Assembly (NCBI RefSeq): GCF_000002425.4
Contig: NC_037254.1
Span: forward strand, 10,191,411 to 10,255,410
Length of the DNA: 64,000 nt
Origin: Physcomitrium patens
Lineage: Eukaryota > Streptophyta > Bryopsida > Funariales > Funariaceae
Direction of reading: 5' to 3'
The position numbers were made by a program, and so were the translations under genes. Below, one piece after another: positions 9,356-63,027 of this stretch. The notes beneath the pieces are model-generated. The model did not search any database. It was given only the letters and a program-made list of their open reading frames with translations, and was not told the origin of the DNA. Within the stretch, counting starts at the first letter, position 1. The number at the start of each line of letters is the position of its first letter.

Positions 9356-9394
9356 TGACCACTCCTCGTGGACTTATCCCTAGAAAGGGGGTAA

Positions 9395-10007
9395 TGTCAC
9401 GGATATACTCATGTAAGCTAGTAATTACAAATACAAATAAGTAGAAGTAAGTAAAAGTAGGTAAAAGTAAGTTACTTCTATAGTATTTAATATAGAAGCT
9501 TCCTAGAAGCTTTATAGACGTTGCTTTGACTTCATAGGTGTCTTTAATTGACTTTTTGGATTAGAAACATAGTCAACAAGTTGGCCATGTACTATACATG
9601 TTGTTAGCTTGAAGATCAAGCTAACTATGTGATCCACAGGTAGAAAAATTTATCTTTAATTGACTTTTTGGATTAGAAACGTCGTCAACAAGTTGGCCAT
9701 GTGCCATACATGTTGTTAGCTTGAAGATCAAGCTAACTATGTCACCCACACGTAGAAAAATTTACCTTGTAAGTCAAGGCATGTGTCCTACAAAGTCAAC
9801 ACATATTTGAGGTCCTATAGAACGTCGCCACGAAGCCCCTAGTTAGATAGTATATATAGAGACAAGAGTGAAGCCTTCTTCACTCTTGTCAATTCTTTTC
9901 TTGCTTCCACAGTAGTTTCAAGGGTCACTAGTTTTCTTGTCTTTTGGCAATAGCCATTCTAGTTTTTCTTTCAATATACATACTTATTTATTTATATTTT
10001 GTTACCT
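9395..10007 (+). repeat. LTR-B family 3' LTR of element A, right end missing
   Basis: It starts TGTCACGGATATAC at 9395, just after a purine-rich tract (AGAAAGGGGGTAA, 9382-9394) that would prime plus-strand synthesis. A TATA box (TATATATAG near 9851) lies ~30 nt before CACTCTTGTCAA (~9881), the putative RNA start. Compared with the copy at 21896-22437, the last ~70 nt are missing. It contains a 112-bp tandem duplication at 9541-9764. Confidence 0.8.
9541..9764 (+). repeat. 112-bp tandem duplication within LTR-B
   Basis: Units 9541-9652 and 9653-9764 are nearly identical (both start TCTTTAATTGAC). Each contains a perfect 9-bp hairpin, TTAGCTTGA-AGA-TCAAGCTAA. Other LTR-B copies in the window show only one such unit. 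Confidence 0.85.
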
Positions 10008-13744: not shown

Positions 13745-14558
13745 TGGGCTTTTGGCTACTACTAAATACTCAATCAAATCTAAGATATTAAAGTTCTAAG
13801 TTTATATATAATATTTTCTCTTTTAGGACAATCAAATCAATACATAAGCCTAAGTATAAAAAAAAATACCCAAATATATGATAAAATATCTTAAAACCTT
13901 ATATATCCTTATGGAGATTTTTTTTCAAATTTCAATAATTCATATCTCATGATCAGACTATCCAAAAAAATTAAAATTTTACATGAAGTATTGATATACT
14001 TTCAAAAAATACCAAAACAATTTCAATTACAAATTCATTACATATCTTGAGATATTGCCAAAATCCTAACACTAGCTTCAAACCCTTATTTACATACATC
14101 CGCATGCAATTTTCTTCATATCTCACAAACTAAGTATTTAAATACTATGAAACTTTGATCTATATCTTCTTAATCTAATAAAAAACACTTATAGAATTTG
14201 AACCAAAAAATCATCTAGAAACCCAAGATATGGTTCCAACCATTACTATCAACAAAACGACTCACTTACTATCTTTGAATTATATGTGTTGTCTTTACCA
14301 CCCTATAACTCCTTCATCTAGACTTAGAATTCATCAAAAAATATATGAAAAGTATAGCTAAGAAAGTATTCTCTCTAATTTCAGTTTTTGATCCTTTATT
14401 GCTCTTTATTAGCATATGTTATGCCCCAAAGAGTGACAATAGATGCAAAATTGACACCTTAGCTTTGAGTGCCTATAACTCCTTCATACAAACTCCAAAT
14501 CACACAAAATTTTTATCCAAATTGTATCCAAAAACCTAAACTTGCTGATCCTAGCTTC
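13745..14558. repeat. Dispersed repeat R1, left part of an interrupted copy
   Basis: Together with 20693-21095 this corresponds, in opposite orientation, to the insert at 58170-59502. It contains several loose iterations of a motif like AACTCCAAATCACACAAAA. The piece at 14345-14539 and its counterpart at 58722-58904 translate to similar 60-residue peptides starting MKSIA(K/A)KVFS, but no larger frame exists. It interrupts Gypsy B gag and is itself split by the element at 14559. Confidence 0.65.
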
Positions 14559-14970
14559 TGTCACGGACACAAAATACAGACTTGAAATCTAACAAGAAGT
14601 TCAAGAAGAAGTGGCAGAACTAGATTAAACAGATGAGTACAAGAACAACACCAGAAAGGTGAGCTAGAACTCCAAGAGATGTGTTGTCGAGACTGAAGAA
14701 CCCTTCAGCCTCGACTCCTATATATACTACTGAATAGGAAGCTTCTCGAGCTACTTCCGCTAACTAGGACGCTTCTCCAACAACTTCTACTAATTAGGAA
14801 ACTTCTCGAGCAACTTCCTAGAATCTATCAGAATATTCTAGAACCTTCTAAGGGAATCTTTAGGGAATATTCTAAGAATCTTCTAGAACCTTCTAAAGGA
14901 ATCTTTAGAGAATCTTTAGAGAATATTCTAGAAGAATATTCGAAGAATCTTCCAATGTATGTCCATGACA
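14559..14970 (-). repeat. 3' LTR (LTR-A, 412 bp)
   Basis: It has TG...CA termini on the plus strand (TGTCACGG...CATGACA) and is preceded by the target duplication GCTTC. The adjoining minus-strand sequence AGAAGAGGAGGTGA (14971-14984) is the polypurine tract. It is 99% identical to 20276-20687. Confidence 0.95.
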
Positions 14971-15020
14971 TCACCTCCTCTTCTAACTTCGAGGTCTCCG
15001 AGAAGCAATGTTGTTATCAG

Positions 15021-15494: not shown

Positions 15495-15908
15495 CTATCG
15501 TTGAATCGGCTTAGGTTTATGAGGATATCGTTGATGAAATTCTTGTACCTTTTTTGGTGCATTGGCAAGATTTTCGGCACGCTCCCACGTTCGTTCATTG
15601 ATGTCGTATCCACTCCAATGCACTAAATACTCCAATTTTCTCCTATTACGCCGTGAATCTAGTACCTTTTCCACCTCGTATTCCTCATGGTTTTCAATTT
15701 CGATACTTGGTGGCGGACTTTGTACTCTTTGGGGAAAAGCTGACTCTCGATAAGGTTCCAACAAAGACACATGAAAGATTGGATGTACCTTCATAGTAGC
15801 TGGTAACTCCAGACGATATGCCACCGGATTGATCTGCTTCTCGATAACAAATGGCCCTAATCTCCGATAGTCCAATTTGTCACATGGCCGCTTGGTCTTG
15901 ATATTCCG
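15495..15908 (-). CDS. pol 3' end: integrase GPY/F module and chromodomain (after in-frame TGA)
   Basis: This continues in the same frame as 15909-18965 after a single TGA at 15909-15911. It contains the GPY/F module of integrase (DYRRLGPFVIEKQINPVAY) and a chromodomain (YEVEKVLDSRRNRRKLEYLV, then HWSGYDINERTWE) ending at the stop at 15495. In chromoviruses this tail recognises histone marks and directs integration. The TGA sits where the related copy A has a His codon followed by Arg, and where a CGA would become TGA by one C-to-T change. Without readthrough this product would not be made from the copy shown. Confidence 0.85.
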   Translation of the reverse strand, partial: RNIKTKRPCDKLDYRRLGPFVIEKQINPVAYRLELPATMKVHPIFHVSLLEPYRESAFPQRVQSPPPSIEIENHEEYEVEKVLDSRRNRRKLEYLVHWSGYDINERTWERAENLANAPKKVQEFHQRYPHKPKPIQR

Positions 15909-18900
15909 TCAAAGAAGCCATACTTTACTTCCAACTTTAAAAGTAGGCGCCTCATTTCGATATTTATCTGCAGATGCCTTGTAACTCTCTTGGGCAGATT
16001 GCAATTGAAGCTTCAACGTCGCTTGAAGCTCCGATAGTTGCTTCACAAATCCTTCAGCTGTTGGGTTGTTATTTGCTGAAGAACTCAATAAATCGAGCTT
16101 GGGGTGGTATCCGTAGTTGGAGAAGAATGGTGTTTGTTGAGTTGACGCATGAAGAGTGTTGTTGTATGCGAACTCAGCAAGCGGTAGATATGCAGTCCAA
16201 TCATCTTGTTGATAGTTGATGCTGCATCGTAAATATTGCTCCAAAACTTGATTCACCCGCTCCGTTTGACCGTCAGTTTGAGGATGAAAAGCCGAAGAGA
16301 GCTTAATATCCACCTTCAATATCTCAAAGAGGGACCTCCAAAACTTGGATACAAACTGAGTACCTCGATCCGACACGATATCATCTAGTAGGCCATGATA
16401 ACGATATATGTTATCAAGAAAGAGTCTTGCGGTGTCTTCACTTGACGATGTTTTCTTGCAAGGCACGAAATGCGCCATCTTTGTAAATCGATCCACCACA
16501 ACAAAGATGCTGTCAAATGAATTCGATGGTGGTAGGTCCGTAATGAAGTCCATAGAAACTGAAGACCATGGTCGGTGCGGAATAGGCAATGGCTGGAGAA
16601 GTCCATACGGACGATGTCGAGGGATCTTGGATCTTGAACAAACATCACAAGAAAGGACAAATTCCTTCACATCCTTCCACATTTGGGGCCACCAAAAATC
16701 TCGTGAAATGAGCTCCAAAGTCTTGTTGAATCCAAAATGTCCCGCAGCTGGAAAGTCGTGGCGAGATTGAAGTACTCGGAGTCGAGTTGGTCCTTTTGGG
16801 ATATACAACCGCTCCTCAAAATACAGAAGATCTCCCTCCACCTTAAACTTGTCATTATCGACACGTTGTTTGATGTCAAGAGCTATAGAATCCTCAATGG
16901 TCGCAGTACGTACCTCGCTGAGGAAGCCGTCATCGATAGTTGCAACAGTAGCAAAAATCCTGAATTTTTCTAGTTTCAACAATGTTGTACATTGTTGATC
17001 AAACGCTGCTTCTCCAGCCTTTGGCGCAAGATACGATCTCCTCGATAATGCGTCAGATAATCCTTGCTGTTTTCCAAGGCGATAGGTGATAATAAAGTCA
17101 AATCGTGATAGAGACATATTCCATCGAGCTTGACGACGATTCAAAATTCGAGCTGCCATGAAGTACTCCAAATTCTTGTGGTCCGTATAAACAGTCACTG
17201 GATGTGCAGCTCCTTCGAGGAAGTGACGCCACTCTTGGAAGGCATCCACTATAGCAAGCAACTCTTTGTCGTGGATCTCATAGTTGATCTCAGCAGCAGA
17301 GAACTTTCGTGAATAGAACGCAACTGGATGAAGCTTCTTGTCTATGCCCATCTGTGAAAGCACAGCTCCCAAAGCAAAATCTGAAGCATCGGTCTCTAAA
17401 TAGAAAGCCTTTGCAAAGTCAGGGTGTACCAAGATTGGAGCCGTAGTGAATGCCGTCTTGAGATCTTGAAATGCTTTTGCTGCTTGTGATCTCCATTCGA
17501 GCTTGTCTTTGCTTGTTAGACGCGTGAGTGGTGCAGCAACTTGAGAATAATTCTTGATGAAGATCCGATAGAAGTTAGCAAATCCAAGAAAACACTGAAC
17601 ATCTCTAACCGTCTTCGGAACTTTCCAAGATATAATTGCTTCTACCTTTTTTGGATCCATCTTCAAGCCCTCTGTAGTCGCAATGAAGTCCAAAAATTCC
17701 ATCTCATTCTGGTGAAATTGACACTTCTCCAACTTGGCGTAGAGTCCTCGTTTGCGTAGTTTTTCAAGAACCAAACAAACGTGCTTCTCATGTTCTTCTT
17801 CATTCTTGGAAAATATCAAAATATCATCCAGATAGATGACAACAAAGTCATCGAGGTACTCCCGAAAGATGTCGTTCATCATATGCTGAAAGATCGCTGG
17901 AGCATTGGTAAGACCAAAAGGCATGACATTGTACTCAAAATGGCCATACCTTGTACGAAAGGCTGTCTTCCATTCATCTCCTTCTTTGATTCGCACAAGG
18001 TTGTAGGCTCCTCTTAAATCAATCTTTGTAAAAATCCTTGCACGTCCAAGTTGATCTAAGAGGCCGGAGATCAAAGGTAAGGGATAGCGATTTTTCTTGG
18101 TCACCTTGTTGAGTCCTCGGTAGTCCACGCACATCCGCAGTGAGCCATCCTTTTTCTTCACGAATAGGATTGGTGCTCCAGCTGGCGACTTTGAATGTTG
18201 AATAAAATTCTTGGCTAGATTCTCATCGATGTACTTCCGCAATTCTGCCAACTCCGTCTGCGATAGGTTGTATATTGGACCAAAAGGTGGTTGCGCTCCT
18301 TCCTCTAAGTCTATGGCGCAATCATATGGTCGATGTTCCGGCAGTATATCGGCGTTTTTCTTCTGAAACACGTCTTCAAAATCCCTATATTGCTCTGGTA
18401 TATTCGATGTTGAGATATTCTCGCCGCTAGTTGGAGCTGCATAAATGACAAATGGTGCGCCTTCCTTGGACGATCTTAGGAACGCTCTCGCTCCAATAAA
18501 CATGGATTTCTTCATGTAGGTTCTACCAACAGGTTTATTATTATTTTTTTCAGGAAATGTTATCCTTCGTAGCCTCCAATCAATGGACGGATTATGATCT
18601 TCTAACCAAGAAAGACCAAGGATAACAGGGCTTGATGGGGTTCTAATAATATTAAAAATAACGTGACTACTATGGTCTTTAAACACCACTTCTATAGGTT
18701 CTGATTCGTGGGTAACGTTGCCTGACAATAAGGGTCGTTCATCTATCACCTCTACGTGAACAGGTTTGGACTTCTGTACTAAACGGATCTTGTGGCATTT
18801 AGCAAACTCTTCATCTAAAAAACAAGTAGATGCCCCTGAATCCAATAAAGCTAAAGTTTTTTGTTTTTGAGGGCCTAAAAACAAAGGAATTGTAAAACAA

Positions 18901-18965
18901 CGGGCAGGTTGGACAGAGAAGGAGGAACCTGATTGTTGTTGTGATATTAGATTGTCCAGCCGCAC
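15909..18965 (-). CDS. pol: Gypsy pol polyprotein: protease, RT, RNase H, integrase
   Basis: This is an open frame of 1018 codons from the first GTG; the frame is open a further ~50 nt upstream, overlapping gag in the -1 frame. Protease active site LLDSGAS is at residues 41-46. RT lies at about residues 200-420 with [21 protein letters not shown] and the catalytic [10 protein letters not shown]. RNase H follows with [27 protein letters not shown] and YTDHKNLEYF. Integrase has the HHCC zinc finger (GHFGFNKTLELIS...CDVCSRSK) and the D, D, E core ([33 protein letters not shown]). All the catalytic residues I looked for are present. It would replicate and integrate the element; the TGA at 15909-15911 cuts off the chromodomain tail. 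Confidence 0.93.
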   Translation of the reverse strand: MRLDNLISQQQSGSSFSVQPARCFTIPLFLGPQKQKTLALLDSGASTCFLDEEFAKCHKIRLVQKSKPVHVEVIDERPLLSGNVTHESEPIEVVFKDHSSHVIFNIIRTPSSPVILGLSWLEDHNPSIDWRLRRITFPEKNNNKPVGRTYMKKSMFIGARAFLRSSKEGAPFVIYAAPTSGENISTSNIPEQYRDFEDVFQKKNADILPEHRPYDCAIDLEEGAQPPFGPIYNLSQTELAELRKYIDENLAKNFIQHSKSPAGAPILFVKKKDGSLRMCVDYRGLNKVTKKNRYPLPLISGLLDQLGRARIFTKIDLRGAYNLVRIKEGDEWKTAFRTRYGHFEYNVMPFGLTNAPAIFQHMMNDIFREYLDDFVVIYLDDILIFSKNEEEHEKHVCLVLEKLRKRGLYAKLEKCQFHQNEMEFLDFIATTEGLKMDPKKVEAIISWKVPKTVRDVQCFLGFANFYRIFIKNYSQVAAPLTRLTSKDKLEWRSQAAKAFQDLKTAFTTAPILVHPDFAKAFYLETDASDFALGAVLSQMGIDKKLHPVAFYSRKFSAAEINYEIHDKELLAIVDAFQEWRHFLEGAAHPVTVYTDHKNLEYFMAARILNRRQARWNMSLSRFDFIITYRLGKQQGLSDALSRRSYLAPKAGEAAFDQQCTTLLKLEKFRIFATVATIDDGFLSEVRTATIEDSIALDIKQRVDNDKFKVEGDLLYFEERLYIPKGPTRLRVLQSRHDFPAAGHFGFNKTLELISRDFWWPQMWKDVKEFVLSCDVCSRSKIPRHRPYGLLQPLPIPHRPWSSVSMDFITDLPPSNSFDSIFVVVDRFTKMAHFVPCKKTSSSEDTARLFLDNIYRYHGLLDDIVSDRGTQFVSKFWRSLFEILKVDIKLSSAFHPQTDGQTERVNQVLEQYLRCSINYQQDDWTAYLPLAEFAYNNTLHASTQQTPFFSNYGYHPKLDLLSSSANNNPTAEGFVKQLSELQATLKLQLQSAQESYKASADKYRNEAPTFKVGSKVWLL

Positions 18966-18970
18966 GGTTC

Positions 18971-19972
18971 CTACTGTGGCTGGGCGTCGTCGTTTTCCGG
19001 AATCATCGCACTTCTAGTCTTGACAGGGTGCCAATTTTGCTTCTTTGGGCAATTTCCAACCTTGTGACCTTCTTCTCCACAGTACAAACATAACCCTTCC
19101 TCCATACGCCGTTTCTTCTCTGTTGGAGTAAGAGATCGGACACGCACCGTGTCGATTTGCATGTCTGTTGCCTCCGAATGTGAGTTTAAGCTATTTGTAG
19201 ACATAGTCACGTCGTAACGAGTCATTTGGTGTCTTGGACGTTGGTATTGGCGACGCTGGAATAGGCGGTTGTCACACTTTACAGCTTGGCTAATAGCTTC
19301 GTTGAGCGTTTGAGGATCAGGAAGAGATAACAGCAAGTCCTTCACATCATCCTTCAAGCCCCAATAAAACTGACTCACCAACGCCTCTTCACCCCAATTA
19401 ATGTCACTTGCCAATTGTCTGAAATCCGAGGCATAGACTGATGGAGAGCGTGTTCCTTGTCGTAGCGATCGGATCTTTGTTGTAGCCCATCGAACTTTAT
19501 CATGCTCGCCAAATGCTTCTGCAAACGCCTCCAAGAACGTTTCAAAGTTGCTCAAGATTGGCGATCGCTTCTCGAACAAGGGAGTAAACCAAGACAGAGC
19601 TTGTGCTGTAAGCAAGGTTCCAACAAGCCCAACACGCGCTTCCTCCATCGGATAACGTTCGGGCTGTAAAATTGTTATCAACCTGATTTGGTTGACAAAA
19701 CCTCGAAACTTGGAACGAGTTCCATCAAACTTATCCGGAAGACTAACTCGAGGCTCCTTTCGTTGTAGGACTACTCGATCTTGTTGAAATGGAGGTAGAA
19801 CTGCTTCTTCTGGCGCAGAAGTTTGAGGCTGATATGCTTTAGATGGCGCTATCCCAGATGCTCCATTGTTATGGAGTCCTACCATGACTCCTTCGATCTC
19901 TATTGTCCTATGTGACAACGAGGCAAGAGCATTTATGATGGCGTCTAGTTTGGATTCCAAACTTTTAGCCAT
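18971..19972 (-). CDS. gag: Gypsy gag polyprotein (capsid and nucleocapsid)
   Basis: It runs from ATG at 19972 to TAG at 18971, 333 residues with no interruption. The N-terminal ~30 residues look like a helical leader (ESKLDAIINALASLSHRTIE). The central part has the Gypsy capsid pattern (FDGTRSKFRGFVNQIRL, ALSWFTPLF, FEEAFAEAFGEHDK-like, SVYASDFRQLASDINW). A single zinc knuckle LCLYCGEEGHKVGNC (C-X2-C-X4-H-X4-C) lies near residues 295-308. It assembles the cytoplasmic particle and packages RNA. Its end overlaps pol in the -1 frame at GGAAAAC, so Gag-Pol is probably made by -1 frameshifting. Confidence 0.93.
   Translation of the reverse strand: MAKSLESKLDAIINALASLSHRTIEIEGVMVGLHNNGASGIAPSKAYQPQTSAPEEAVLPPFQQDRVVLQRKEPRVSLPDKFDGTRSKFRGFVNQIRLITILQPERYPMEEARVGLVGTLLTAQALSWFTPLFEKRSPILSNFETFLEAFAEAFGEHDKVRWATTKIRSLRQGTRSPSVYASDFRQLASDINWGEEALVSQFYWGLKDDVKDLLLSLPDPQTLNEAISQAVKCDNRLFQRRQYQRPRHQMTRYDVTMSTNSLNSHSEATDMQIDTVRVRSLTPTEKKRRMEEGLCLYCGEEGHKVGNCPKKQNWHPVKTRSAMIPENDDAQPQ
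18992..18998 (-). promoter_or_regulatory. Candidate -1 frameshift site at the gag-pol overlap
   Basis: The minus strand reads G-GAA-AAC in the gag frame, 18 nt before the gag TAG. The pol frame is -1 relative to gag and is open from just upstream (a TAG in that frame lies ~30 nt before the site). GAAAAC is kept at the same place in copies A (5319-5325), D (55317-55323) and E (~61309). It is not a textbook X-XXY-YYZ heptamer with three identical first bases. Confidence 0.45.
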
Positions 19973-20042
19973 TTTAACGTCTTAACCTTCGGCTAACCTT
20001 CAGAAAGAAGAAAAAAGAATTTTGACAAGAGGACAATATTGG

Positions 20043-20261: not shown

Positions 20262-20273
20262 CAGTCTCGACAA
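20262..20273 (-). other. Putative self-priming primer binding site
   Basis: The minus strand reads TTGTCGAGACTG, 2 nt inside the 5' LTR. It is exactly complementary over 12 nt to CAGTCTCGACAA at 20412-20401, which lies 31 nt after the start of the TATA box, where transcription should begin. This is the arrangement by which Tf1 of fission yeast primes reverse transcription with its own RNA 5' end. Element B keeps the pairing with changed bases (21882-21893). Confidence 0.75.
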
Positions 20274-20275
20274 AC

Positions 20276-20687
20276 TGTCACGGACACAAAATACAGACTT
20301 GAAATCTAACAAGAAGTTCAAGAAGAAGTGGCAGAACTAGATTAAACAGATGAGTACAAGAACAACACCAGAAAGGTGAGCTAGAACTCCAAGAGATGTG
20401 TTGTCGAGACTGAAGAACCCTTCAGCCTCAACTCCTATATATACTACTGAATAGGAAGCTTCTCGAGCTACTTCCGCTAACTAGGACGCTTCTCTAACAA
20501 CTTCTACTAATTAGGAAACTTCTCGAGCAACTTCCTAGAATCTATCAGAATATTCTAGAACCTTCTAAGAGAATCTTTAGGGAATATTCTAAGAATCTTC
20601 TAGAACCTTCTAAAGGAATCTTTAGAGAATCTTTAGAGAATATTCTAGAAGAATATTCGAAGAATCTTCTAATGTATGTCCATGACA
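20276..20687 (-). repeat. 5' LTR (LTR-A, 412 bp)
   Basis: It is the upstream LTR for the minus-strand element, with TG...CA ends followed by the target duplication GCTTC at 20688-20692. U3 is rich in GAA/TTC triplets, and the TATA box and RNA start are at 20436-20443 and ~20412. Confidence 0.95.
20412..20660 (-). promoter_or_regulatory. LTR promoter: heat-shock-element-like arrays plus TATA box
   Basis: TATATATA on the minus strand at 20443-20436 is placed 31 nt before the putative start at 20412. Upstream, triplets alternate at exact 5-bp spacing: GAA 20548, TTC 20553, GAA 20558, TTC 20563; a second set GAA 20593, TTC 20598, GAA 20603, TTC 20608; and a third GAA 20638, TTC 20643, GAA 20648. 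Three or more alternating nGAAn units define a heat-shock element, so induction by heat-shock factors, as known for ONSEN of Arabidopsis, is plausible. Confidence 0.6.
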
Positions 20688-20692
20688 GCTTC

Positions 20693-38461: not shown

Positions 38462-38717
38462 CAAACCGACTTAGGTTTATGAAGATGTTGTTGATGAAAC
38501 TCTTCTATCTTTTGTGGCGCATTGTCGAGATTTTCAGCTGGATTCCACATTCGCTCATTAATGTCGTAGCCGCACCAATGAACAAGATATTCCAACTTAC
38601 CCCACCTTTGTCATGAATCCACACCTTTTCAACCTCGTATTCCTCATGGTTCTCGATCTCAATACTACGTGGCAGACATTGCACTCTTCCAAGAAAAGAC
38701 GTCTCTTAATAAGGCTC
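38462..38717 (-). pseudogene. Chromodomain end of copy D pol
   Basis: The minus strand encodes a degraded chromodomain related to 15495-15700 (LVHWCGYDINERMW-like text) ending near 38470. It is interrupted at 38717 by the gag-only element and continues at 43403. Confidence 0.7.
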
Positions 38718-39494
38718 TGTAGAATAAGTAGTTATTTGCTGATTTGTAGATACTTAGTTTATAGTGTAAATAGGGATAGATGACTGTTAGAAAGGTAGTT
38801 CAGTAGTTAAAATGGATGAATAGTTAGGAAAAGCAGTTTTCATTAGAGATGTAGCAGTTGGTATCTTCTGGTAGGATAAGGAGGATGAGAGAGAGGAAGA
38901 AACCGCCATTACTGTGAGAGTCGTGAGCCGGGGTAAGCTTGGTGCTACCTCTTTTCTTTAGTTGTTATGTTCTTTGAAATAAGAGTATTAAGAGTTTCTG
39001 AATATTGTGAAGTGAATCATGGAATGAAAGTGTGAATGGAATTATATGTTATTGAATGAGAAGAAGAGAGATTGAATGCTGAAATCTGAATGTAGTTCAG
39101 CAGAAAGAGTGAATCTGTGGTTGTGTGAAACACTGTAATGTGAATGGTAGTTCTGTGTGAAGAATTCCAGTAATTGGAATGAGGGTAATTGTGTGCTGAA
39201 GCTGTGATGTTGAGGTATTACAGTTGGAGATTGTAAGAGTGAAGATATATTGGTGGAAATAACAGTTATTGGTATGACTGAATTGTTGTAAGGAAGAGAG
39301 TGATAAGGTGAAAGGAGAGATTATCGTTTTCCTATGTGCTTAGACAATGGAAATAGTGACGATACATTGGAGGTAATTAATTGTGTGACCCTAACGTGAA
39401 CGCTCAAGCAACTAGTCACTCCCCGTGTTCGAATTCCCCTATATGGGTTTATTCTGGGAAGTTTCTTCCGAAATAAGTGAAACGAGAAATCACA
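38718..39494 (+). repeat. 5' LTR of the gag-only element
   Basis: Its termini are TGTAGAATAAG and GAAATCACA, and it aligns along its length with 42627-43402. Confidence 0.92.
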
Positions 39495-39496
39495 TT

Positions 39497-42532: not shown

Positions 42533-42626
42533 TCAGTAGCTATGAGTATGGACAATGCTAAGGAGTCACCAGTTCAATTTTGAACTAGGTGTTTGCGAGG
42601 ACGCTGCACAGTTAGGAGTGGGGCTA

Positions 42627-43402
42627 TGTAGAATAAGTAGTTATTTGCTGATTTGTAGATACTTAGTTTATAGTGTAAACAGGGATAGATGACTATTGGA
42701 AAGGTAGTTCACTAGTTAAAATGGATGAATAGTTAGGAAAAGTAGTTTTCATTAGAGATGTAGCAGTTGGTATCTCGTGGTAGGATAAGGAGGATGAGAG
42801 AGAGGAAAAAAGGGCCATTACTGTGATAGTGTGAGCCGGGGTAAGCTTGGTGCTACCTCTTTTCTTTTGTTGTTATGTTCTTGGAAATAAGAGTATTGAG
42901 AGTTTCTGAATATTGTGAAGTGAATCATGGAATAAAAGTGTGATTGGAATTATATGTTATTAAATGGGAAGAAGAAAGATTGAATGCTGAAATCTGAATG
43001 TAGTTCAGCAGAAAGAGTGAATCTGTGGTTGTATGAAACACTGTAATGTGAATGGTAGTTATGAGTGAAGAATTCCAGTAATTGGAATGAGGGTAATTGT
43101 GTGCTGAAGCTGAGATGTTGAGGTATTACAGTTGGAGATTGTAAGAGTGAAGATATATTGGTGGAAATAACAATTATTGATATGACTGAATTGTTGTAAG
43201 GAAGAGAGTGATAAGGTGAAAGGAGAGATTATTGTTTTCCTATGTGCTTAGACAATGGAAATAGTGACGATACATTGGAGGTAATTAATTGTGTGACCCT
43301 AACGTGAACACTCAAGCAACTAGTCACTCCCAGTGTTCGAATTCTCCTATATGGGTTTATTCTGGGAAGTTTCTTCCGGAATAAGTAAAACGAAAAATCA
43401 CA
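42627..43402 (+). repeat. 3' LTR of the gag-only element
   Basis: It is preceded by the purine-rich tract AGGAGTGGGGCTA and ends AAAAATCACA, matching the 5' LTR. Confidence 0.92.
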
Positions 43403-45989
43403 TGCTCCAACAGAGAAATATGAAAGACTGGATATACCTTCATACAAGCTGGTAATTCCAGATGGTACGCCACTGAATTGATTTGCTTTTGGATGATAAA
43501 TGGTCTCAAACTTCGATAGTCCAATTTATGACATGATCGCTTGGTCGTGATATTCTATCAAAGAAGCCATGCTTTATCTCCAATTTTGAAAGTGGGTGCT
43601 TGATTCTGAAATCTATCTGCAAACCTCTTGTAGGATTCTTGAGCGGATTGTAATTGAAGCTTCAACGTATTTTGAAGCTTTGATAGTTGTTTCACAAATC
43701 CTTTAGTTGCTGGATTGTTATTTGTTGACGGACTGAATAAATCAAGCTTCAGATGATATCCATAGTTGGAAAGTATGGTGTGTATTAAATCGACGTATGG
43801 AGGCAGTTGTTATATGTAAACTCGGTTAGCGGCAGATATGTGGTTCAATCATCTTACTCATAGTTGATGGTGCATGGAAAGTATTGTTCCAAGACTTGGT
43901 TCATCCATTCCGTTTGGCCATCAGTTTGAGGGTGAAAAGTAGAAGAAAGCTTGACATCCACCTTCAGTATCTCAAAGAGAGATCTCCAAAACTTTGATAC
44001 AAACTGGATTCCTCAATCTGATACGATATCATTTGGTAGTCCATGATAACGATACACATTATCTAAAAAGAGCCTTGCTGTGACTTCATTAGACGATGTC
44101 TTCTTGCAAGGGACAAAGTGCGCCATCTTTGTAAGCCGATCTACCACGACAAAGATGCTGTCAAATGAGTTCGATGATGGCAGGTCCGTGATGAAGTCCA
44201 TAGAAATTGAAGACCATGGTCGACATGGAATCGACAATGGCTATAAGAGTCCATAAGGGCGATGTTGAGGATTCTTGGATCTTAAACAAATGTCGCACGA
44301 GAGGATAAAATCTTTCACATCCTTCCACATTTCGGGCCACCAAAAATCTTGAGAAATAAGCTCCAAGGTATTGTTGAATCCAAAATGTCCCACAACTGGA
44401 AAATTGTGGCGAGATTAAAGAACTCGGAGTCGTGCAAGTCCTTTTGGGATATATAACCACTCCTCAAAGTATAAAAGATCTCTCTCCACCTTGAACTTGT
44501 CGTCATAGGTACACTACTTAATATCAATGGCTACTAAAACTTTAATGGACACGACACGTATCTAATTCAAGAAGTCAGTATCAATTGGCACAATAGTAGC
44601 GCATAGTTGAAATTGCTCTGGCTTCAATACTGTCATACATTGTTGATCAAACGTTGCTTCTTCAGCCTTTGGTACAAGATATAATCTCCTCGATAAGGCA
44701 TCAGATAGTCCTTGCTGCTTTCCAGATAGATAAGTGATAACAAAATCAAACCTATATAGCAACATATTCCACCGACTTTGACGTCGATTTAAAACTCGAG
44801 CTGACATGAAATATTTCAAATTCTTATGATTTGTGTATACAGTCATTGGATGTGCAGCTCCTTCAAGAAAGTGACGCCATTCTTAGAAAGAATCCACTAT
44901 AGCAAGAAGTTCCTTATTATGGATCTCATAATTGATTTCAGCAACAAAGAACTTTTGATAATAGAATGCAACGTGCTGGAGCTTCTTGTCTTCTCCCATT
45001 TGTGAAAGTACAGCTCCCAAAGCAAAATCCGAAGCATCAATTTCTAAATAAAAGGCCTTTGTAAACTATAGATGTACCAAGATTAGAGCCATAGTAAATG
45101 CGGTCTTAAGGTCTTGAAATGCCTTCTCCGATAGAGGTCCCGATTCTAGCTTATCCTTGCATATCAACTAAGTGAGAGGAGCAGCAACTTGAGAATAATT
45201 CTTGATGAAGATCCGAGAGAAGTTGATAAAACCAAGAAAACAGTGTACATTTTTAACCGTCTTCAGAACCTCTCAGGACACATTTGCTTCCACCTTCTTA
45301 AAGTCCATCTTCAAACCTTCCATAGTCGCAATGAATCCCAAAAATTCCATCTTTATTTGGTGAAATAAATACTTCTCCAACTTGGCATATAGTCCTCACT
45401 TGCGTAGTTTCTCTAAGACCAAACAAACGTGCTTTTCATGCTCTTCCTCATTTTTGGAGAATATCAAAATATCATCCAAATAGATGACAACAAAATCGTC
45501 AAGGTGCTCTCGGAAAATATCATTCATCATATATTGAAAGACCACTGGAGCATTAGTAAGACCAAAGGGCATGACATTATACTCAAAATGGCCATACCTT
45601 GTATGGAATGTTGTCTTCCACTCATCTCCTTCCTTGATTCATACGAGATTGTAAGCTTCCCATAGATCAATTTTTGTAAAGATCCTTACACGTCCAAGTT
45701 ATTCTAAGAGACCAAAAATCAAGGGTAACGGATAACGATTCTTCTTTGTTACCTTGTTGAGGCCTCGATAGTCCACACGCATCCGCAATGAGCCATCTTT
45801 CTTCTTCACAAATACGATGGGTGCTCCGGTTGACGATTTTGAATGACGGATGAAGTTCTTGGCTAGATTCTCCTCGATGTACTTCTGCAACTCCGCCAAC
45901 TCCATCTGCGATAGATTGTAGATTGGGCCAAAAGGTAATTGTGCTTCTTCCTGCAAGTCTATGGCGCAATCATATGGTTGGTATTTCAG
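43403..45989 (-). pseudogene. Copy D pol: integrase, RNase H, RT (decayed)
   Basis: Minus-strand similarity to the intact pol runs from RT (45989 down to about 45250; [23 protein letters not shown] region near 45480) through RNase H (about 45130-44650; HKNLKYFMSARVLNRRQS) and integrase (44530-43900; [16 protein letters not shown]) to the GPY/F region at 43500. There are many stops and frameshifts. At 43557-43562 the codons equivalent to the pol/chromodomain TGA of the intact copy read TGA-TAG. The RT is interrupted at its upstream end by element C. Confidence 0.85.
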
Positions 45990-47332
45990 TGTCGTATTAC
46001 GTGCTTTCCTGCTCAAGAACGCGCCAGGCGTCTGGCTGTAGAAGGTAGTATGGAGATCCGCCGATAGTCAAGCAGTCTATCAGTTTTTACTGCCGGAATA
46101 TAAACGACTGCAAGAATATACCGTAAATCTTTACTGATGCCCTTCGACTGCTTGTTGAAGTCCTTTTTTTGCCCCAGCCGGTAGGTCTCTAGACGTTACA
46201 GAGAACCCCGAACAACCCAAACTGTTAATCTTCAATATCCCTTTGTACTTACGATCTTGTATCCACTGACTGTCCTGTTAGATTAACCCAATAAATTTCA
46301 TTCACTCCGCATACTCAATCCTATAGACATCCCTTTAATCTTTCAATCACAGACGTAACTCGATTTTATAAAACAGTCAAGAGTATTCAAACCCACTTCA
46401 TTTAAAAATCCCGATTCACCATTACAACACTGACTTCAGCAGCGATTGCCTCAGTCGTCCCCAAAACTCTACGAAGAAGAAAAATCCAAATTCTATGTCT
46501 TTCCTTCCCCGACCCGAAGCATGAAGCTCCTCTCTCTAATTCCCTTGATCTTCTAAAAACCTCCAATGAAAACCGAACTAGTAACCTTGAAAAGAGCTTG
46601 AAGCTAGCTCCTTGATCCAAAAAAAAACCCCCTGAAAAAAAAACCTCCCCCCTCAAAACTATATCCCCCCCTAACCTTATCTTTTGAATTTCTTCAATCT
46701 TCCGTCTTAGATCCGGAATTGGCTCCCACCTCAAGCTTGGATCCGAAATTGGCTCTCGCCGTCAAGCTTTCTCCTCCGTTTTTACCTTTAAGAAATCCAT
46801 TTACCGAAAACAACGTTCCCTGAAACGGCACAGAGATCAGGACAGCCTGAAACAGAATCGAACCCCGTAATCGGGACCACATTGAGTCGCCCGACCAATT
46901 CAGGTCCTATATTGGGAAAGATGTCCGTAGTAACCTGGATGTTCCCGTAATTGGGTCAAATTGGTCCTCGCGTCAGATTGGCTAACATCCGTAGTAAGAC
47001 CTAGATTTCCCGTAATTAGACTGCATTGAGTTGACCGACCAATTCAGGTCTCATATTGGATAAGAGGACCCGGATTGGATTATCGAAATTGGATCCAATT
47101 GGCTCCTCGAACCCGTCGTGTGAATTGGTCCTTCTCTTCCTGCTGACTCCCGTTATTGGAATGGAACGGAGCATTTCAGTATGCCTCGGCTGACTGTAAC
47201 GGAGTCACTGAACCTGACCACTCAGTATTTGTACTGGAGTTGGTTGATGCTCCCAATATTCGAGGTAACTGAATATTATTAAAATTCCCCTTTCTTTTTA
47301 TTTTCAGTGTATACTCGTGTTACAACACGACA
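45990..47332 (-). repeat. 3' LTR of element C (1343 bp)
   Basis: It is nearly identical to 53314-54659. It contains duplicated small frames (for example 46402-46734) that also occur in the other LTR and are not regarded as genes. Confidence 0.93.
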
Positions 47333-47466
47333 TCCACCCCCTCTGAACCTGTGCATCCTCCGGTATGCACCAATTTACCCAATTGCTGTTTGATTCAGAA
47401 TATATCCCCTACGTCTTTGTCCACTTCGTCTTCGTCACCTTCATTATCCATATCACTTTCATCTTC

Positions 47467-48630
47467 TTACTGCAGAATCTCTGTACCTTCATTAAGGTCT
47501 TCCATATTCATCTCTGTGTGTCTTCGTTTAAGTATTTTTACTCGCTTCTTTGCAATTGGTATTTTCAATTTTGTACCATCTAACTCCCGTAATGAGTAAG
47601 TCGCATTATCATGAACAGTTGTTATAACATATGGTCGAAACCAACGTTTTGAAAATTTCTGCAAAGTACTATGTTGATTATCCAGACTATTGTCATAAAC
47701 AAGTACCCAGTCACCGTCCTCGATTGCTTTTGGTCTCAATCGATGTTGCTTATCTAATCGCGCCTTGTTTTGTAACCTTGCTCTTTTTAACCTTTCCAAT
47801 GCTATCTGGACATCTTCCGTTCTTTGCTCCAATTGTCGAATCCTAATAGCCAGAAGTTCTTCTCTTGTCAATCCATCTTCCCATGGTAGCATACTCCAAG
47901 TAAGTACCTTTTCTTCAATCGGCATAATTGGTTTTTGACCTGTCATAAGTTCTACTGGTATATATCCTGTCACCGAACTATGTGTTGTTTGATCAGCCCA
48001 TAATACAAATGACAAAAGCCGTGGCCACTCTTTAACTTTCCCATTACAAGCTTTAACCAATACTTTCACAATCGGCGGGTGACCGCATTCGCTTTTTGCA
48101 TTCCCTTCCGGATTATGAGCAGTAGTCAGTGATAGTTTAACTCCACATTTTTCAAAGAACTTACGAGCTTCTTGTGCATTTAATTCTCCACGATCTGCAG
48201 TGATTTTTCCTACGCACCCGTAACGGCAAATGACATCTTCAAGCAAAAACCTACAAATCCCCTCTGTAGATTTTGTCCTCAATGCTCTTCCTTCTACTTG
48301 ATTTGATAAATATTCACGAGCTAAAACCAAATATCTCATCTGCCATAACCCAACCGGCATAATAATCAAATCAACAACCCATTTAAAATGAATAGCCAGA
48401 GGATACGTAGGATGAAGACCATCTCGATGTCGGATATTAGAATACGATTGACAGATTTCACATGACTCTACAAATGAGAGCACATCTCGATACATATTTT
48501 TCCACCAATATCGTTCCTTGAGTTTAGCAAAAGTAGCCCAGATTCCTCTATGCCCTGCCCATAAACTATCATGAAACTCCTTTAATAATTTTAGTTTTTC
48601 TTCCCTTTTGCCTATCACTCGTTGTGGCAT
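47467..48630 (-). pseudogene. Element C integrase
   Basis: The frame holds 387 codons. The zinc-finger part has HDSLWAGHRGIWATF...CEICQ. The catalytic core is VVDLIIMPVG, KITADRGELNA and HNPEGNAKSE, giving D, D and E with 34 residues between the last two. A C-terminal module with KRWFRPYVITTVHDNATYSL follows, but no chromodomain. The frame is open but separated from RNase H at 48733 by stops, so the polyprotein is broken. Confidence 0.85.
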
Positions 48631-50869
48631 CCCAATTCCTTTCTTCGGTCTCTTCCATAAGAATCCATCTCGAAGTAAAAATCCATATGCTTTTTTTCTT
48701 ATTTGTTTGAATTTTTCTGTAGACCAATTCCCCTACTTAGACAAGGTATTCAAATAATGACCAATATCCAATAATTCTCCTTCATAAGCTTCTTCAAGAA
48801 ATAGCTTGTCTTCTGTGTTGAGATTCGATATTGAATAGAATTTCAATCTGACATCATCAATGTCTTCAACCATTTCGTCCTCCCTCTCGTATCTTGCTCG
48901 AGATAGCATGTCTGCTACTAAATTGTTCTTTCCAGTGATATGCTTAAATTCTGGATTTAGTGACTTAATATAAGCAATCCATCTCAACATTGCAATATCT
49001 GGCGTTGAACAGTTAATAATCATTCCAAGCAATGGCAAGCAATTTGTTTCAATTACTACTACTGCCCCAATCAAATAGTCCTTTTCAGCTTTCATAGCCG
49101 AAACGACTCCCCAAAGTTCTCTTTTGACTTGCAAATATGCACGCTGACGAATACTTAAAACTTTAGCCCCAAATCGAACTGCAAATCTACTCCCATTCGA
49201 ATCATCTTGACCCACCGCCCATCCAACGGCAATTGGACTAGCGTCTACAGTAAGAATCACTGGTCTATTGAACTTATAATCAACCTTCCTCAATATTGGA
49301 GGTGACATCAATAATTTCTTCAATCTTTGCATTGCCTGAATATGCCTTTCTTTCCATTCAAATCGGTAACCCTTGCGTAACAGTTCATATAATGGATCTG
49401 CTATGTGAACAAAATGAGGGATCCAGATTCGATAAAATACACATGCACCCAAAAACCTGCGAACCTCTGTTAAAGAACCACAATCCTCTTTCATCCTTCC
49501 AATTGCATCAACTTTAGTCGGATCTGGTTTTCTTCCGTAAGATCCGCATAAATATCCAACAATTACAACCTCTCGCACTCCAAATACGGACTTCATACCC
49601 GATAATGTAAGATGAACTTCTCCAAGCCGAGTTAAAATCTTTTCACAATCTTATATATGATCAACAACATATCTGCGACACCCCCTCGTATCAAAAGTTT
49701 CATCCTTGTCTCCTTCTCTGCACCCTTTTATAGGAACATCATCCAAAAAAGCCATAGTCTTTTCCGAATAAAATCTCTCAATACCTTATTCATCCCATTC
49801 ATCATATGCGCAACTGAGTTGGTCGCGCCTTGAGGAAGAGTGCACATTCTAACCAATCCAAGCGGTGTCCTCATCATTGTCATATCTCTACTTCCTTCGG
49901 CAAGTTGAAATTAATCATAACCTGAATACAAATCACCCATTGAATAGATTGCCCTTCCAGCAAACGCCTCAGCAAATTCATCCACAATAGGTCCAATTCC
50001 TGCATTCCTGACAGTTACAGCATTCACCGGCTGCATATCTTGAATAAACCGTAGTGACCCATTCTTCTTAGGTACCGTAAACCATCGACTAGAATACGGC
50101 GCAAATGAAGGTTCTAATATTTTCATCTTTATCTTTTCTTTTAATAGCTCAACTAATTTAGATAAATGTGCCCTCGGTACTGGAATCGGTCTTAGATTCC
50201 AAGGTACATGTGGTACAGTGAAGATAACCATAGGTGTTACAATATTTGGATCCACACACCCAATTTCATGAGATTCGAAGGCAAACGATCTACCTTGTTT
50301 AGCCAACATCTTTTTGAAGCAAGTAATTTCCTCCGGCAATAAAGAACCATCAGAACCAATCTTCAATTCTTCAAAAGTCTCTTCAGTAAACTGATGTCCA
50401 ATACTCATTGGATCTCTTAAACTTGCTTCTTTTGATGCTTCTTCCATTTGTTCTTTAGAATCCTCTGGTAATGGTCCGGCAACAGGCTTAACCTTCTTAT
50501 CTACCGTTTTATATCTCGTCTCTACTGTGACTTCTGGTGCTTGAAAAGATTCAAGCATGGTATAAACCTCTCTCGAATGAATCTCAACAATCTTATCATT
50601 ATTTCCTAACCCAATAGATGTAATCAATTCCAATGAATCTTCCAACCCATTTTCTTCATAAACACCTAAAATCCTCTCATCATCTTGCAATGTACCTATC
50701 TAGCGTAACTGTCCTTCAATATCATATAATCTTTTTCTTTCTTTTCTTTTAAAATCATCAACTTTCTTATACATAATATTTCCATTCTCCAATATACCAA
50801 TAAAACTCGCATCAAAGGCACCTTCATCTCGCGAGAGTACCTCCTCTTTTGTACCTCCATAATCTCGCT
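48631..50869 (-). pseudogene. Element C reverse transcriptase and RNase H
   Basis: RT begins in the frame 50690-49911 (WNLRPIPVPRAHLSKLVELL, VPKKNGSLRFIQDMQPVNAV, IYSMGDLYSGYD). It is broken between 49910 and 49597, where the active-site region reads AFLDDVPIKG (F-L-D-D rather than Y-x-D-D). It resumes at 49596-48733 with the connection and RNase H (LTVDASPIAVGWAVGQ, TGKNNLVADMLSRA). It is the core of a Gypsy pol, defective through stops and a frameshift. Confidence 0.85.
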
Positions 50870-53266
50870 TTACAGTGGTACCTCCCCAAAATCCTTAAAT
50901 CCTTCAACAATCTTTGGCAATGGTTTCTCCCTCAACCTATCTCGATTCCGTTCATGGTTAGGAGGTACTGTTAGAAATTGTACAGCTTTCCTCCCATCTT
51001 CGCTACGTATCCTTGCATAAGCAGAACCATCGTCAAGTACCTTTGTTTCCATCCGTGTTGCCGTGATATAAGGTTGTCCTAAAATCAACGGATAAGACGT
51101 TGTATCTTGAACAAAGAAATGTTGCTCCGTCGCAACATCCCCAATCCGAATTTTGACATCTGGACAAGCTCCATATAATTCGCCTCGTGTGTTATTAGCT
51201 ACTCGTATTGCCCATCCATATTCCATATCAATTAGCCATTTTTGCTTCTTATAAAGATCTTTAGACATGAGATTTATTTCAGAACCATGGTCCACCAAGG
51301 CAACTATTGGTTCTTCTATATCTCCTACCTTCACCAATACCTCAGTAGTTGCCCTTGCCCAATGCTTTCGAGTATAATGGCTCAAAGTTTCTATTCCCTT
51401 GTCACTAGAATCTTCGAAACGTACTTGCTGATTATACCCATTCTTTTCATTTGTTGGTTGCTTGTAACCAATATCAACCTCTTCTTCATCTCTACATATT
51501 CTTGCATCAATAGCATGACTCATTCCAGTTTCGCTCATTAATTGCCTCTTTCGCTTAATGCTGTCAATGATAACATCATGAAACTCCTTCTTTGCAATTC
51601 TCAAGACTTCTTTCAATGTGAATTCCACCTTAGCGTTTAATATACGTTCTTCCAACACCCCTTTCAAATTTGTTGCCGCTTCAATATCAGAAAGTAGCGT
51701 ATAAGCAATTGATTTGCCCTCATCTTTTGTCTTTGTTGTTTTTTCTCCCAATGATGCTAAGGTATCCTTTACAGGCAATTCTTGTGAAGCTGCCTCTCGA
51801 GCCTTGTCTCCTCGAGTTTGCCTCTTAAAAGAATTTCCTTCTCTAGTATCATCAAAATTTCCTCGTCTTTTTTCTTCCATCAAAGCTTCATGTTGGCTCT
51901 TAGCAATATATGCATGAACTGAAAGAGACTCAACAGGATCCTCCCAACCTGTTCTTCCTCGTATTGTAGCTGCAGTTCTCAATAACGCTTCTCGAGGTAA
52001 TTTCCCTTCTTGCATTGTAGAAACGGCAGAAACCCAAAACTCACTAGTTTCCGTACTTCCACCAATTTCATCATCTACTCTAGCACCATAACTTGCACTT
52101 TCTCGTACTATTGTTTCATGCTCTTTTAAGTAATCTTGAACCAATGCTCTCATTCCTCCCTTGCCAAAATTGGTTTGAAGAAGATCCTCCCTATCTTTCA
52201 ATGCTATCTTCTCATCTTTCCAGCAAATAATTCCCTGCCGTATCATATTATTAAATTCATTGCAATCTTTTCTAGTGTGTGAAGCATCATCACACCAAAT
52301 GCATCTTTGTACATATCCTTGTTTTGAAACATTCTTCGAATTGTTTATAGAAGTATTCTCTTCAAGTCTTCCTAATTTGATTTAAAGATCTTGCATTCCT
52401 CGTATAATTTCTTCCATACCCATATCTGCTTTCTTTGACAAGGATGTCGAAGGTTGAACTGTAGGCATTGTCGGTGGTGTTGTACGTACTGGAGCTTTGG
52501 GTGCTTGTACTGTTTTCGGAATATTACTCCTATCCTTCCTCCTTTCTTTTTTTGTAAGCAACTCCACCGCATCTTCAACGTTCTTCCACTTCGTTGTCAA
52601 TCCTTCATCTTCTTCTTTGTCTTCAAGAAGGGGTTCTAATTTCTCTTGCAATTCTCCATCAGCAGCTTGAAGAAATAGATCAACTTTGTTCGGCTCCAAT
52701 GTCAATTTTTCTACCTTCGATAATTGAGAGTACTGCCTCTCAAATTCCCTTAGTAGCTCTGTTGCTTGCAAATTCTTATTGGGCCGTTCAATCCATCCCA
52801 GAAACAGCTTCTTAGTAATGTGATCAGCATCTTCCAAGAAATATTCGTCTTTCAATGCATGTGAAAAATCCTCCCATGAATTCCCACAACGATCCGTAAT
52901 CGATGTAATGTGGTCCCTTATCTCCGGTATCGTGGCAAGTCCAAATAGTGCAACCATTTTCTTCTCAGAAACCCGATTTAATTCTATTTCACGAACATAA
53001 CATCTTAAATACCTTGAAATATTCCTCCCATCAAATTGATCAATTTTACTGACCACTGCTTGCAATGCTTTGGTTGCCAAAGCTTCCTTTCGATCATTAC
53101 TTTGTTGTTGCTGCATTGACAATGAGAAGGCTTGAAACAAACTAGCAATAGATGGATCCATGTGCATACCTTGTCCTTTAGAAGACTCCTCACCAGAAAC
53201 TTCTCCCAAAAATCCTTCAAAATTTTTATTTTCGTTTTCCATAAAAATAAAGATAAAATCAACCAA
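50870..53266 (-). pseudogene. Element C gag and protease
   Basis: The parts 53266-52382 and 52246-50870 are in the same frame, with stops at 52382-52384 and in between. Gag probably starts at MENENKNFEG; it has a Gln-rich segment and helical capsid text, then a zinc knuckle CIWCDDASHTRKDC near 52300. A long charged linker leads to the protease, whose active site reads LVDHGSEINLM, i.e. D-H-G instead of D-S/T-G. pol continues in another frame after 50870. The D-H-G variant could be a real lineage feature or a mutation; similar DHG motifs are, I believe, seen in some fungal Gypsy elements, but I cannot verify this here. Confidence 0.78.
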
Positions 53267-53292
53267 AATCCAATACCTTCTACCTCAAGCTT

Positions 53293-53309
53293 TCACGTCG
53301 GGTTCACCA
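53293..53309 (-). other. Element C putative primer binding site
   Basis: The minus strand reads TGGTGAACCCGACGTGA four nt after the 5' LTR, with the TGG start typical of tRNA-primed elements. I cannot name the tRNA. Confidence 0.6.
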
Positions 53310-53313
53310 CTTA

Positions 53314-54659
53314 TGTCGTATTACGTGCTTTCCTGCTCGAGAACGCGTCGGGCGTCTGGCTGTAGAAGGTAGTATGGAGATCCGCCGATAGTCAAGCAAT
53401 CTATCAGTTTTTACTGCTGGAATATAAACGACTGCAAGAATACACCGTAAATCTTTACTGGTGCCCTTCGACTGCTTGTCGAAGTCCTTTTTTTTTTGCC
53501 CCAACCGGTAGGTCTCTAGACGTTACAGAGAACCCCGAACAACCCAAACTGTTAATCTTCAATACCCCTTTGTACTTACGATCTTGTATCCACTGACTGT
53601 CCTGTTAGATTAACCCAATAAATTTCATTCACTCCGCATACTCAATCCTATAGACATCCCTTTAATCTTTCAATCACAGACGTAACTCGATTTTACAAAA
53701 CAGTTAAGAGTATTCAAACCCACTTCATTTAAAAATCCCGATTCACCATTACAACACTGACTTCAGCAGCGATTACCTCAGTCGTCCCCAAAACTCTACG
53801 AAGAAGAAAAATCCAAATTCTATGTCTTTCCTTCCCCGACCCGAAGCATGAAGCTCCTCTCTCTAATTCCCTTGATCTTCTAAAAACCTCCAATGAAAAC
53901 CGAACTAGTAACCTTGAAAAGAGCTTGAAGCTAGCTCCTTGATCCAAAAAAAAACCCCCTGAAAAAAAAACCTCCCCCCTCAAAACTATATCCCCCCCTA
54001 ACCTTATCCTTTGAATTTCTTCAATCTTCCGTCTTAGATCCGGAATTGGCTCCCACCTCAAGCTTGGATCCGAAATTGGCTCTCGCCGTCAAGCTTTCTC
54101 CTCCGTTTTTACCTTTAAGAAATCCATTTACCAAAAACAACGTTCCCTGAAACGGCACAGAGATCAGGACAGCCTGAAACAGAATCGAACCCCGTAATCG
54201 GGACCACATTGAGTCGCCCGACCAATTCAGGTCCTATATTGGGAAAGATGTCCGTAGTAACCTGGATGTTCCCGTAATTGGGTCAAATTGGTCCTCGCGT
54301 CAGATTGGCTAACATCCGTAGTAAGACCTAGATTTCCCGTAATTAGACTGCATTGGGTTGACCGACCAATTCAGGTCTCATATTGGATAAGAGGACCTGG
54401 ACTGGATTATCGAAATTGGATCCAATTGGCTCCTCGAATCCGTCGTGTGAATTGGTCCTTCTCTTCTTGCTGACTCCTATTATTAGAATTGAACCGAGCA
54501 TTTCAATATGCCTCGGCTGACTGTAACGGAGTAACTGAACCTGACCACTCAGTATTTGTACTGGAGTTGGTCGAAGCTCCCAATATTCGAGTTAACTGAA
54601 TATTAATAAAATTTTCCTTTCTTTTTATTTTCACTGTATACTCGTATTACAACACAACA
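53314..54659 (-). repeat. 5' LTR of element C (1346 bp)
   Basis: It is the upstream LTR for the minus-strand element, starting on the plus strand with TGTCGTATTACG at 53314. Confidence 0.93.
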
Positions 54660-62593: not shown

Positions 62594-63027
62594 TATCACG
62601 GACACAGAAATACAGACTTAAGATCTAACAAGAAGTTCAAGAAGAATTGGCAAGAACTAGATTAATCAGATGAATATAAGAACAACACTAGAGAGGTGAG
62701 CTAGAGCTCCAAGAGATGTGTTGACAAGACTGAAGAACTCTTCAGCCTCGATTCTAATATAAACTCCTATTTAAGAAGCTTCTCAAGCAACTTCTACCAA
62801 CTAAGAAGCTTCCCATGCAATTTCTATCAACTAAGAAGCTTCTAGAAGGTTCCAAAGACTTGCTTTTAGAAGGTTCTAGAAACTTGTCTCTAGAAGGTTC
62901 TAACGACTATGTCCCTAATATCTTCTACCAACTAGGAAGCTTTCCAAGCAATTTTTATCAACTAAGAAGCTTCTAGAGGGTTCTAGAAACTTGTCTCTAG
63001 AAGGTTCTAAGGACTATGTCCCTAACA
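62594..63027 (-). repeat. LTR of copy E, 5' side (434 bp)
   Basis: The plus strand begins TATCACGG and ends CCTAACA at 63027, followed by TGATT, the right target duplication of the array. At about 62837-62855 it carries GAA/TTC alternations (AAGAAGCTTCTAGAAGGTTC). Confidence 0.85.

Follow-up and report, generated by a model that had tools for sequence, protein, structure and literature searches.

A perfect complement of the predicted RNA 5' end adjoins the 5' LTR of a Physcomitrium patens chromodomain retrotransposon and points to self-primed reverse transcription

Element A and its neighbours in the window

The window analysed here, a stretch of 64,000 nt of the Physcomitrium patens genome, carries on its minus strand, from 20687 to 14559, a 6.1-kb retrotransposon that we refer to as element A. 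Its LTRs (5' LTR, 20276-20687; 3' LTR, 14559-14970) are 412 nt each, read TGTCA...TGACA and are 99% identical, and the target-site duplication GAAGC is present on either side of the element, at 20688-20692 on the 5' side and at 14554-14558 on the 3' side (all minus strand). The internal region holds, likewise on the minus strand, a gag ORF (18971-19981; Pfam Retrotrans_gag / Ty3_capsid), a pol ORF for protease, reverse transcriptase, RNase H and integrase (15909-19013; Pfam domains and a match to Ty3 Gag-Pol), an ORF for a chromodomain and the integrase C-terminal SH3 domain (15495-15908; Pfam Chromo and SH3_Tf2-1) and a polypurine tract recognised from its sequence, AGAAGAGGAGG (14974-14984), which three bases, TGA, separate from the 3' LTR. 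The gag, pol and SH3/chromodomain ORFs, together with the LTRs and the polypurine tract, identify element A as a chromodomain Ty3/gypsy element. From 40 listed copies of element A, 28 were fetched (L001-L028, picked by similarity to A and including A itself), and over 182 nt these show no more than a single-nucleotide difference, indicating a recent burst; because the query used to pick them contained both of the 12-mers described below, their identity at these 12-mers in 28 of 28 cases is biased.

Several other elements share the window. Another gypsy element, on the minus strand at 45990-54659, has LTRs of about 1.35 kb that are 97% identical and carries TGGTGAACCCGACG about 4 nt past its 5' LTR, and TTTGGCGCCGCTGCC follows a repeat pair at 38713-39495 and 42622-43403, the ends of which are approximate; from their appearance we take both motifs to be tRNA-type primer sites. 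Between 54660 and 63027 (minus strand), two elements termed D1 and D2 resemble a tandem array. Upstream of the LTR that spans about 57116 to 56604 lie a purine tract and internal sequence (57117 on), and downstream of it lies a primer-site leader; the D1 LTR, which starts at 63027, is preceded by different sequence.

Complementary 12-mers at the 5' ends of elements A, B, D1 and D2

A sequence-only reading of the window had claimed that in element A 12 nt, 2 nt inward from the 5' LTR, are complementary to a 12-mer located 31 nt after the start of the TATA box, and this was confirmed by the sequence, the target-site duplication and shuffling. Since GAAGC is found at both ends of the element, the predicted self-primer binding site, TTGTCGAGACTG (20273-20262, minus strand), begins exactly 2 nt (GT) past the LTR. 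Over all 12 nt it is a perfect complement of CAGTCTCGACAA (20412-20401, minus strand), the predicted RNA 5' end and self-primer, the start of which at 20412 lies 31 nt after the start at 20443 of the TATA box TATATATA (20436-20443, minus strand, recognised from its sequence); in our numbering, position i of this RNA-start 12-mer pairs with position 13-i of the site. The longest exact complement that the element A LTR offers to the 14 nt past the LTR end (GT plus the site) was 12 nt, a length reached in 0 of 5000 dinucleotide shuffles of this LTR, in which the maximum was 11 nt (2 of 5000). Folding of the leader RNA yielded a structure closed by a 12-bp stem (z -1.97, with 6 of 200 shuffles equally good). 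No TGG, which would be needed for any CCA-ended tRNA, occurs in element A before 23 nt past the LTR. Element A therefore agrees with Tf1-type self-priming in that its site adjoins the 5' LTR, 2 nt past an LTR end fixed by the target-site duplication, in that this site is the complement of the RNA 5' end predicted for the element from the TATA box, and in that, judged by TGG, a tRNA site is absent at the LTR boundary.

For element B, the same reading had also located the site and the RNA-start correctly: TTGATAAGAGTG is found at 21893-21882 and CACTCTCGTCAA at 22073-22062 (both minus strand), and the two pair throughout except for a C.A mismatch at position 7, with a G-U pair at position 8. The LTR 12-mer that it had placed at 9395 is actually at 9881-9892 on the plus strand, the LTR match itself starting near 9393. 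By itself element B is unremarkable, as its longest exact run is 6 nt and runs of 6 or more were obtained in 1860 of 2000 shuffles of the 600-nt stretch used as its LTR, and the stem in its predicted fold is weak (z -0.71, 46 of 200 shuffles equally good). The case for element B hence rests on the position of its site and on better-preserved B-type copies elsewhere. In the leader of D1, the RNA-start 12-mer CAGTCTTGTCAA (62732-62721) and the site TTGTTGAGACTT (62591-62580) mispair at RNA-start positions 9 and 1, and in that of D2, CAGTCTCGTCAA (56740-56729) and ATGTTGAGACTT (56599-56588) mispair at positions 9, 1 and 12 (all minus strand); the sequence-only reading had made no mention of these two leaders.

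Recurrence and covariation of the two 12-mers across the genome

A pattern spanning the LTR end, GT and the site, GTCNNTGAYAGTTTGNNNNNNNTG, matched 932 places genome-wide and its reversed control none; a few of the matches, for example L129, L131 and L133, are not elements. Among the first 100 places listed, 40 had the exact A site and 60 did not, and our sampled set comprised all 60, which include element B (L104), plus the first 16 of the 40, leaving out 24 exact-A places, one of which is A itself. We located the RNA-start 12-mer through its upstream flank, independently of its own letters, in 74 of the 76 copies. Counting Watson-Crick pairs, we found 12 in 21 copies, 11 in 29, 10 in 12 and fewer in 12, the badly paired ones including L101, the anchor of which reads one base out of register; when G-U pairs were counted as well, 63 of the 74 copies had 11-12 pairs. 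At 52 of the 60 places lacking the exact A site, no other segment of the scanned upstream stretch complemented the site better than the RNA-start located by its flank. The copies fall into two large families, A-type with CAGTCTCGACAA and TTGTCGAGACTG and B-type with CACTCTTGTCAA and TTGACAAGAGTG.

A-type and B-type differ by transversions at RNA-start positions 3 and 9 with pairing kept, as had been noted from elements A and B, and these paired differences hold in many copies. In a cross-shuffling test on 58 of the 60 rows (L053 and L106 were omitted because their flank anchors had more than 2 mismatches), pairing with the real partner was 0.862 compared to 0.784 for shuffled partners and exceeded all 5000 shuffles. 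This signal is mostly the single contrast of A versus B. Within families, pairing was not above shuffling, with 711 of 5000 shuffles as good for the 17 A-type copies and 1989 of 5000 for the 41 B-type copies, a result that independent decay of inserted copies would be expected to give. A third subfamily, CAGCCTCGACAA/TTGTCGAGGCTG (CAGCC/GGCTG), is represented by two copies, L061 and L130, in which position 4 has changed on both sides with pairing kept; the 3' LTR of L061 likewise reads CAGCC, so that this change is older than the L061 insertion.

Position 3 behaves differently in one group of A-type copies. We found 38 A-type LTRs with C at RNA-start position 3 (C3) and read the stretch behind all of them: 26 are 5' copies and 12 are not, and 25 of the 26 keep C10 in the site, leaving a C.C mismatch and position 3 uncompensated. 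Two A-type elements, at G000 C12:10039107/10044824 and C17:7472191/7477908 (pairs 5717 nt apart), carry C3 in both LTRs together with an unchanged primer site, which indicates that a change in the RNA-start region can be inherited and spread although the site does not follow it. Under self-priming, a site copied from the primer would be present in plus-strand DNA and the old site in the minus strand, and either could survive.

Changes in the site were seldom matched either. Nine sites read T4 and G10; L111 alone is compensated, six are uncompensated and two are without a locatable RNA-start. As an independent compensated change at position 3, L111 carries little weight, because its 3' LTR is decayed there and the 25 other C3 copies are uncompensated. 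Of two copies with A4 and C10 in the site, one (L143) mispairs and the other (L142) lacks a locatable RNA-start. At position 9 of the site, 14 sites have another letter in place of A, L061 being one; among the 13 others, L130 is compensated, L132, L134, L138 and L139 mispair, and L135, L136 and L141 form a G-U pair there, the remainder being a barely recognisable site (L137), a copy with no locatable RNA-start (L140) and places not recognisable as elements (L129, L131 and L133). Single site changes are accordingly uncompensated in L132, L134, L138, L139 and L143. L078 and L079 (G000 C1:22081331 and 22106691) represent a divergent A-type subfamily, CAATCTCAACAA/TTGTAAAGATTG, that is A-T paired at position 3 and mispaired at positions 7 and 8. 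A consensus fold of 18 A-type leaders (A, D1 and 16 of the shuffle test's 17 A-type copies, L079 being omitted as a near-copy of L078) kept the stem with two changes on both sides and a covariation term of about zero (-0.02), and in that of 24 B-type leaders, chosen from the 41 by omitting more decayed ones, only positions 6-12 were in the stem.

The expectation of the sequence-only reading that the two 12-mers covary genome-wide is therefore borne out between subfamilies, where they are paired at positions 3, 9 and 4, but not within families, and the 25 of 26 unmatched C3 copies display, in part, the independent variation of the 12-mers that this reading had named as speaking against it. Covariation is genuine between subfamilies, comprises few events and is at odds with position 3 in one set of copies.

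The copies also bear on the length of the putative primer. Site position 12, which faces C1, was not free to vary in the 60 plus 16 set because the first pattern fixed site positions 11-12 as TG; among the 26 C3 copies it is T in 12, G in 8, A in 5 and C in 1. It also reads T in the D copies of the window, and both L044 and the B-type copy L035 have A there. Since this position varies, no more than about 11 nt can be counted as a firm match. These few copies suggest that the RNA may start at A2 with a primer of about 11 nt, and the firm part of the self-primer is probably AGTCTCGACAA. The primer site of Tf1 is about 11 nt long and adjoins the LTR. In 25 of the 26 C3 copies the match is shorter, with uninterrupted pairing over no more than 9 positions.

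Self-priming, its alternatives and related elements

We consider it very probable that the minus-strand DNA of element A is started by the 5' end of its own mRNA in the manner of Tf1. Transcription would begin about 31 nt after the TATA box, and the leading 11-12 nt or so of the RNA would loop back to pair with their complement 2 nt past the 5' LTR. The RNA would then be cut after the duplex, and the freed 3' OH would be extended through GT into U5. The 11-12-nt self-RNA would be joined at ...ACTGTCACGG, and the resulting cDNA end, ...CAGT, would be trimmed by integrase to the observed ...CA. In favour of self-priming are the perfect 12-nt complement, which lies at the usual place of a primer site and goes beyond what 5000 shuffles produced, the recurrence of this architecture across the genome, the pairs kept between subfamilies, the stem in the fold of the A leader, the lack of TGG near the LTR, the presence in the same window of another gypsy element with a tRNA-type-looking site about 4 nt past its 5' LTR, and the prediction of self-priming for the probable clade of element A, Tcn1 (see below). 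Against it we count the lack of a signal within families, the uncompensated C3 copies, the unmatched T4/G10 and single site changes, the mispairs in D1 and D2 and the weak stem of element B. The self-priming proposed by the sequence-only reading is thus still the best explanation, with the A/B pairs upheld, but A versus B is essentially one contrast, and nearly all C3 copies (25 of 26) lack compensation.

The main competitor for the role of primer site is a motif further in. At 20252-20241 (minus strand), 23 nt past the LTR, element A carries TGGTATCAGAGC, which we take to be the primer-site motif of initiator tRNA-Met. If this tRNA primed there, the 12-nt complementarity would merely shape the leader RNA, and such an arrangement could draw on the exactness of the 12-nt motif and on the occurrence of a 35-nt string uniting the self-site and the motif in 151 copies. 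Set against this, TGGTATC was found in only 10 of the 76 fetched copies (AGATATC in 16, TAGTATC in 3, TAATATC in 1 and no such motif in 46, 43 of these being B-type or other), the motif is altered in 4 of the 28 A-similar copies, and integrase would need to remove 23 nt. The published tRNA-Met sites of chromoviruses lie 0-3 nt from the LTR in Beta (PMC3605345) and 1-2 nt in Selaginella (PMC3350952), compared to 23 nt from an LTR end that is fixed by the target-site duplication in element A. Given this distance and the neighbouring gypsy element with its site at about 4 nt, the inner motif is unlikely to serve as a primer site, and we regard priming by initiator tRNA-Met as very improbable.

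Two other explanations dispense with priming at the complementary site or with selection on it. The stem might act in packaging, dimerisation or translation as a structure of the leader RNA, or be a promoter feature, and it is true that the fold reaches beyond the 12-mer into R and U5 and that any RNA structure could keep its pairing; since this would leave unexplained why the complement lies exactly 2 nt past the LTR and at TATA+31, and why no tRNA-type TGG is present there, we judge it very improbable. That the pairing is not selected at all and reflects chance, or common ancestry and decay, would fit the small number of independent compensated changes, the uncoupled position 3 of the A-type C3 copies and the absent within-family signal. 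It is hard to reconcile with 12 nt being reached in 0 of 5000 shuffles, with pairing that recurs with changed letters in divergent subfamilies and with the compensated position-4 subfamily, in which both LTRs of L061 are changed, and we give it hardly any credence.

With respect to its affinities, element A has a gypsy pol with a chromodomain, as Tcn1-clade elements do, and probably belongs to this clade with its fungal-type ancestry, a placement judged from pairwise pol identities to the proteins named below. Among the best 120 of 278 gag matches, the only organism named was Physcomitrium patens, with 74% identity across 56% of the query. The closest of the best 120 of 7998 pol matches were metagenome proteins (up to 93%), and the named ones included Powellomyces (60%), Cunninghamella (58%), a frog contig (50%), the alga Closterium (44-49%) and the angiosperm Tarenaya (40%); a search for pol relatives among viral contigs gave no match. 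From its abundance and its chromodomain, element A is probably a member of RLG1, described in PMC7466625 as a chromodomain gypsy family that is the most abundant in P. patens and is transcribed in protonema.

Priming by the 5' end of an element's own RNA is rare but known. In the fungal and vertebrate Tf1/sushi group, which includes Tf1 and Tj1, the primer site is complementary to the mRNA 5' end as in element A (for Tj1 of fission yeast, see PMC4600332); in element A, by contrast, RNA start, RNase H cut and cDNA are predictions. For plants, Neumann 2019 (PMC6317226) predicts self-priming for 12% of LTR elements, for the TAR copia lineage (Houba, Osr-1), which differs from element A in being Ty1/copia, and for most Tcn1 chromoviruses of moss and clubmoss, unlike other plant chromovirus clades. 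Like these Tcn1 elements, element A is a chromodomain gypsy element of a moss host and is without a tRNA-type site at the LTR. A 2013 LTR survey (PMC3601003) likewise mentions hairpin priming in some chromoviruses. SM-Tcn1 of Selaginella differs, since Novikova 2010 (PMC2864245) reports evidence of neither tRNA- nor self-priming for it, in contrast to the complement in element A. The tRNA-Met-primed chromoviruses (the Beta families; SM-Fogey, SM-Diluvium and another Selaginella family) share the tRNA-Met-like motif with young A copies and have it next to the LTR, at the distances given above.

Self-priming in element A is thus probably not new in kind and rather an instance of the behaviour predicted for its probable clade. 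In the openly readable literature covered, self-priming of plant chromoviruses has so far been a prediction, and a search of this literature returned no publication on the primer site of RLG1. The present data provide an element-level case for self-priming from a model moss, in the retrotransposon that is probably its most abundant one. If element A is RLG1, its reported transcription in protonema would make RNA and cDNA ends directly readable. It also becomes testable whether the site is renewed from the primer in each cycle, as the compensated subfamilies would have it, or inherited, as the uncompensated C3 copies would suggest.

A second helix, CTAGCTC/GAGCTAG, had been considered for the tRNA-like region and was dropped, as it is absent from the consensus fold of the 18 A-type leaders. 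A comparison of subfamilies by eye suggests that the tRNA-like motif changed from AGA to TGG. The youngest, recently amplified subfamily might possess a self-primer site in tandem with an initiator-tRNA-Met site 9 nt further in, newly completed from AGATATCAGAGC, and may be in the course of switching, or free to choose, between the two, which strikes us as a very improbable scenario. The inner tRNA-Met-like motif is complete in the youngest subfamily, and many older A-type copies read AGATATCAGAGC.
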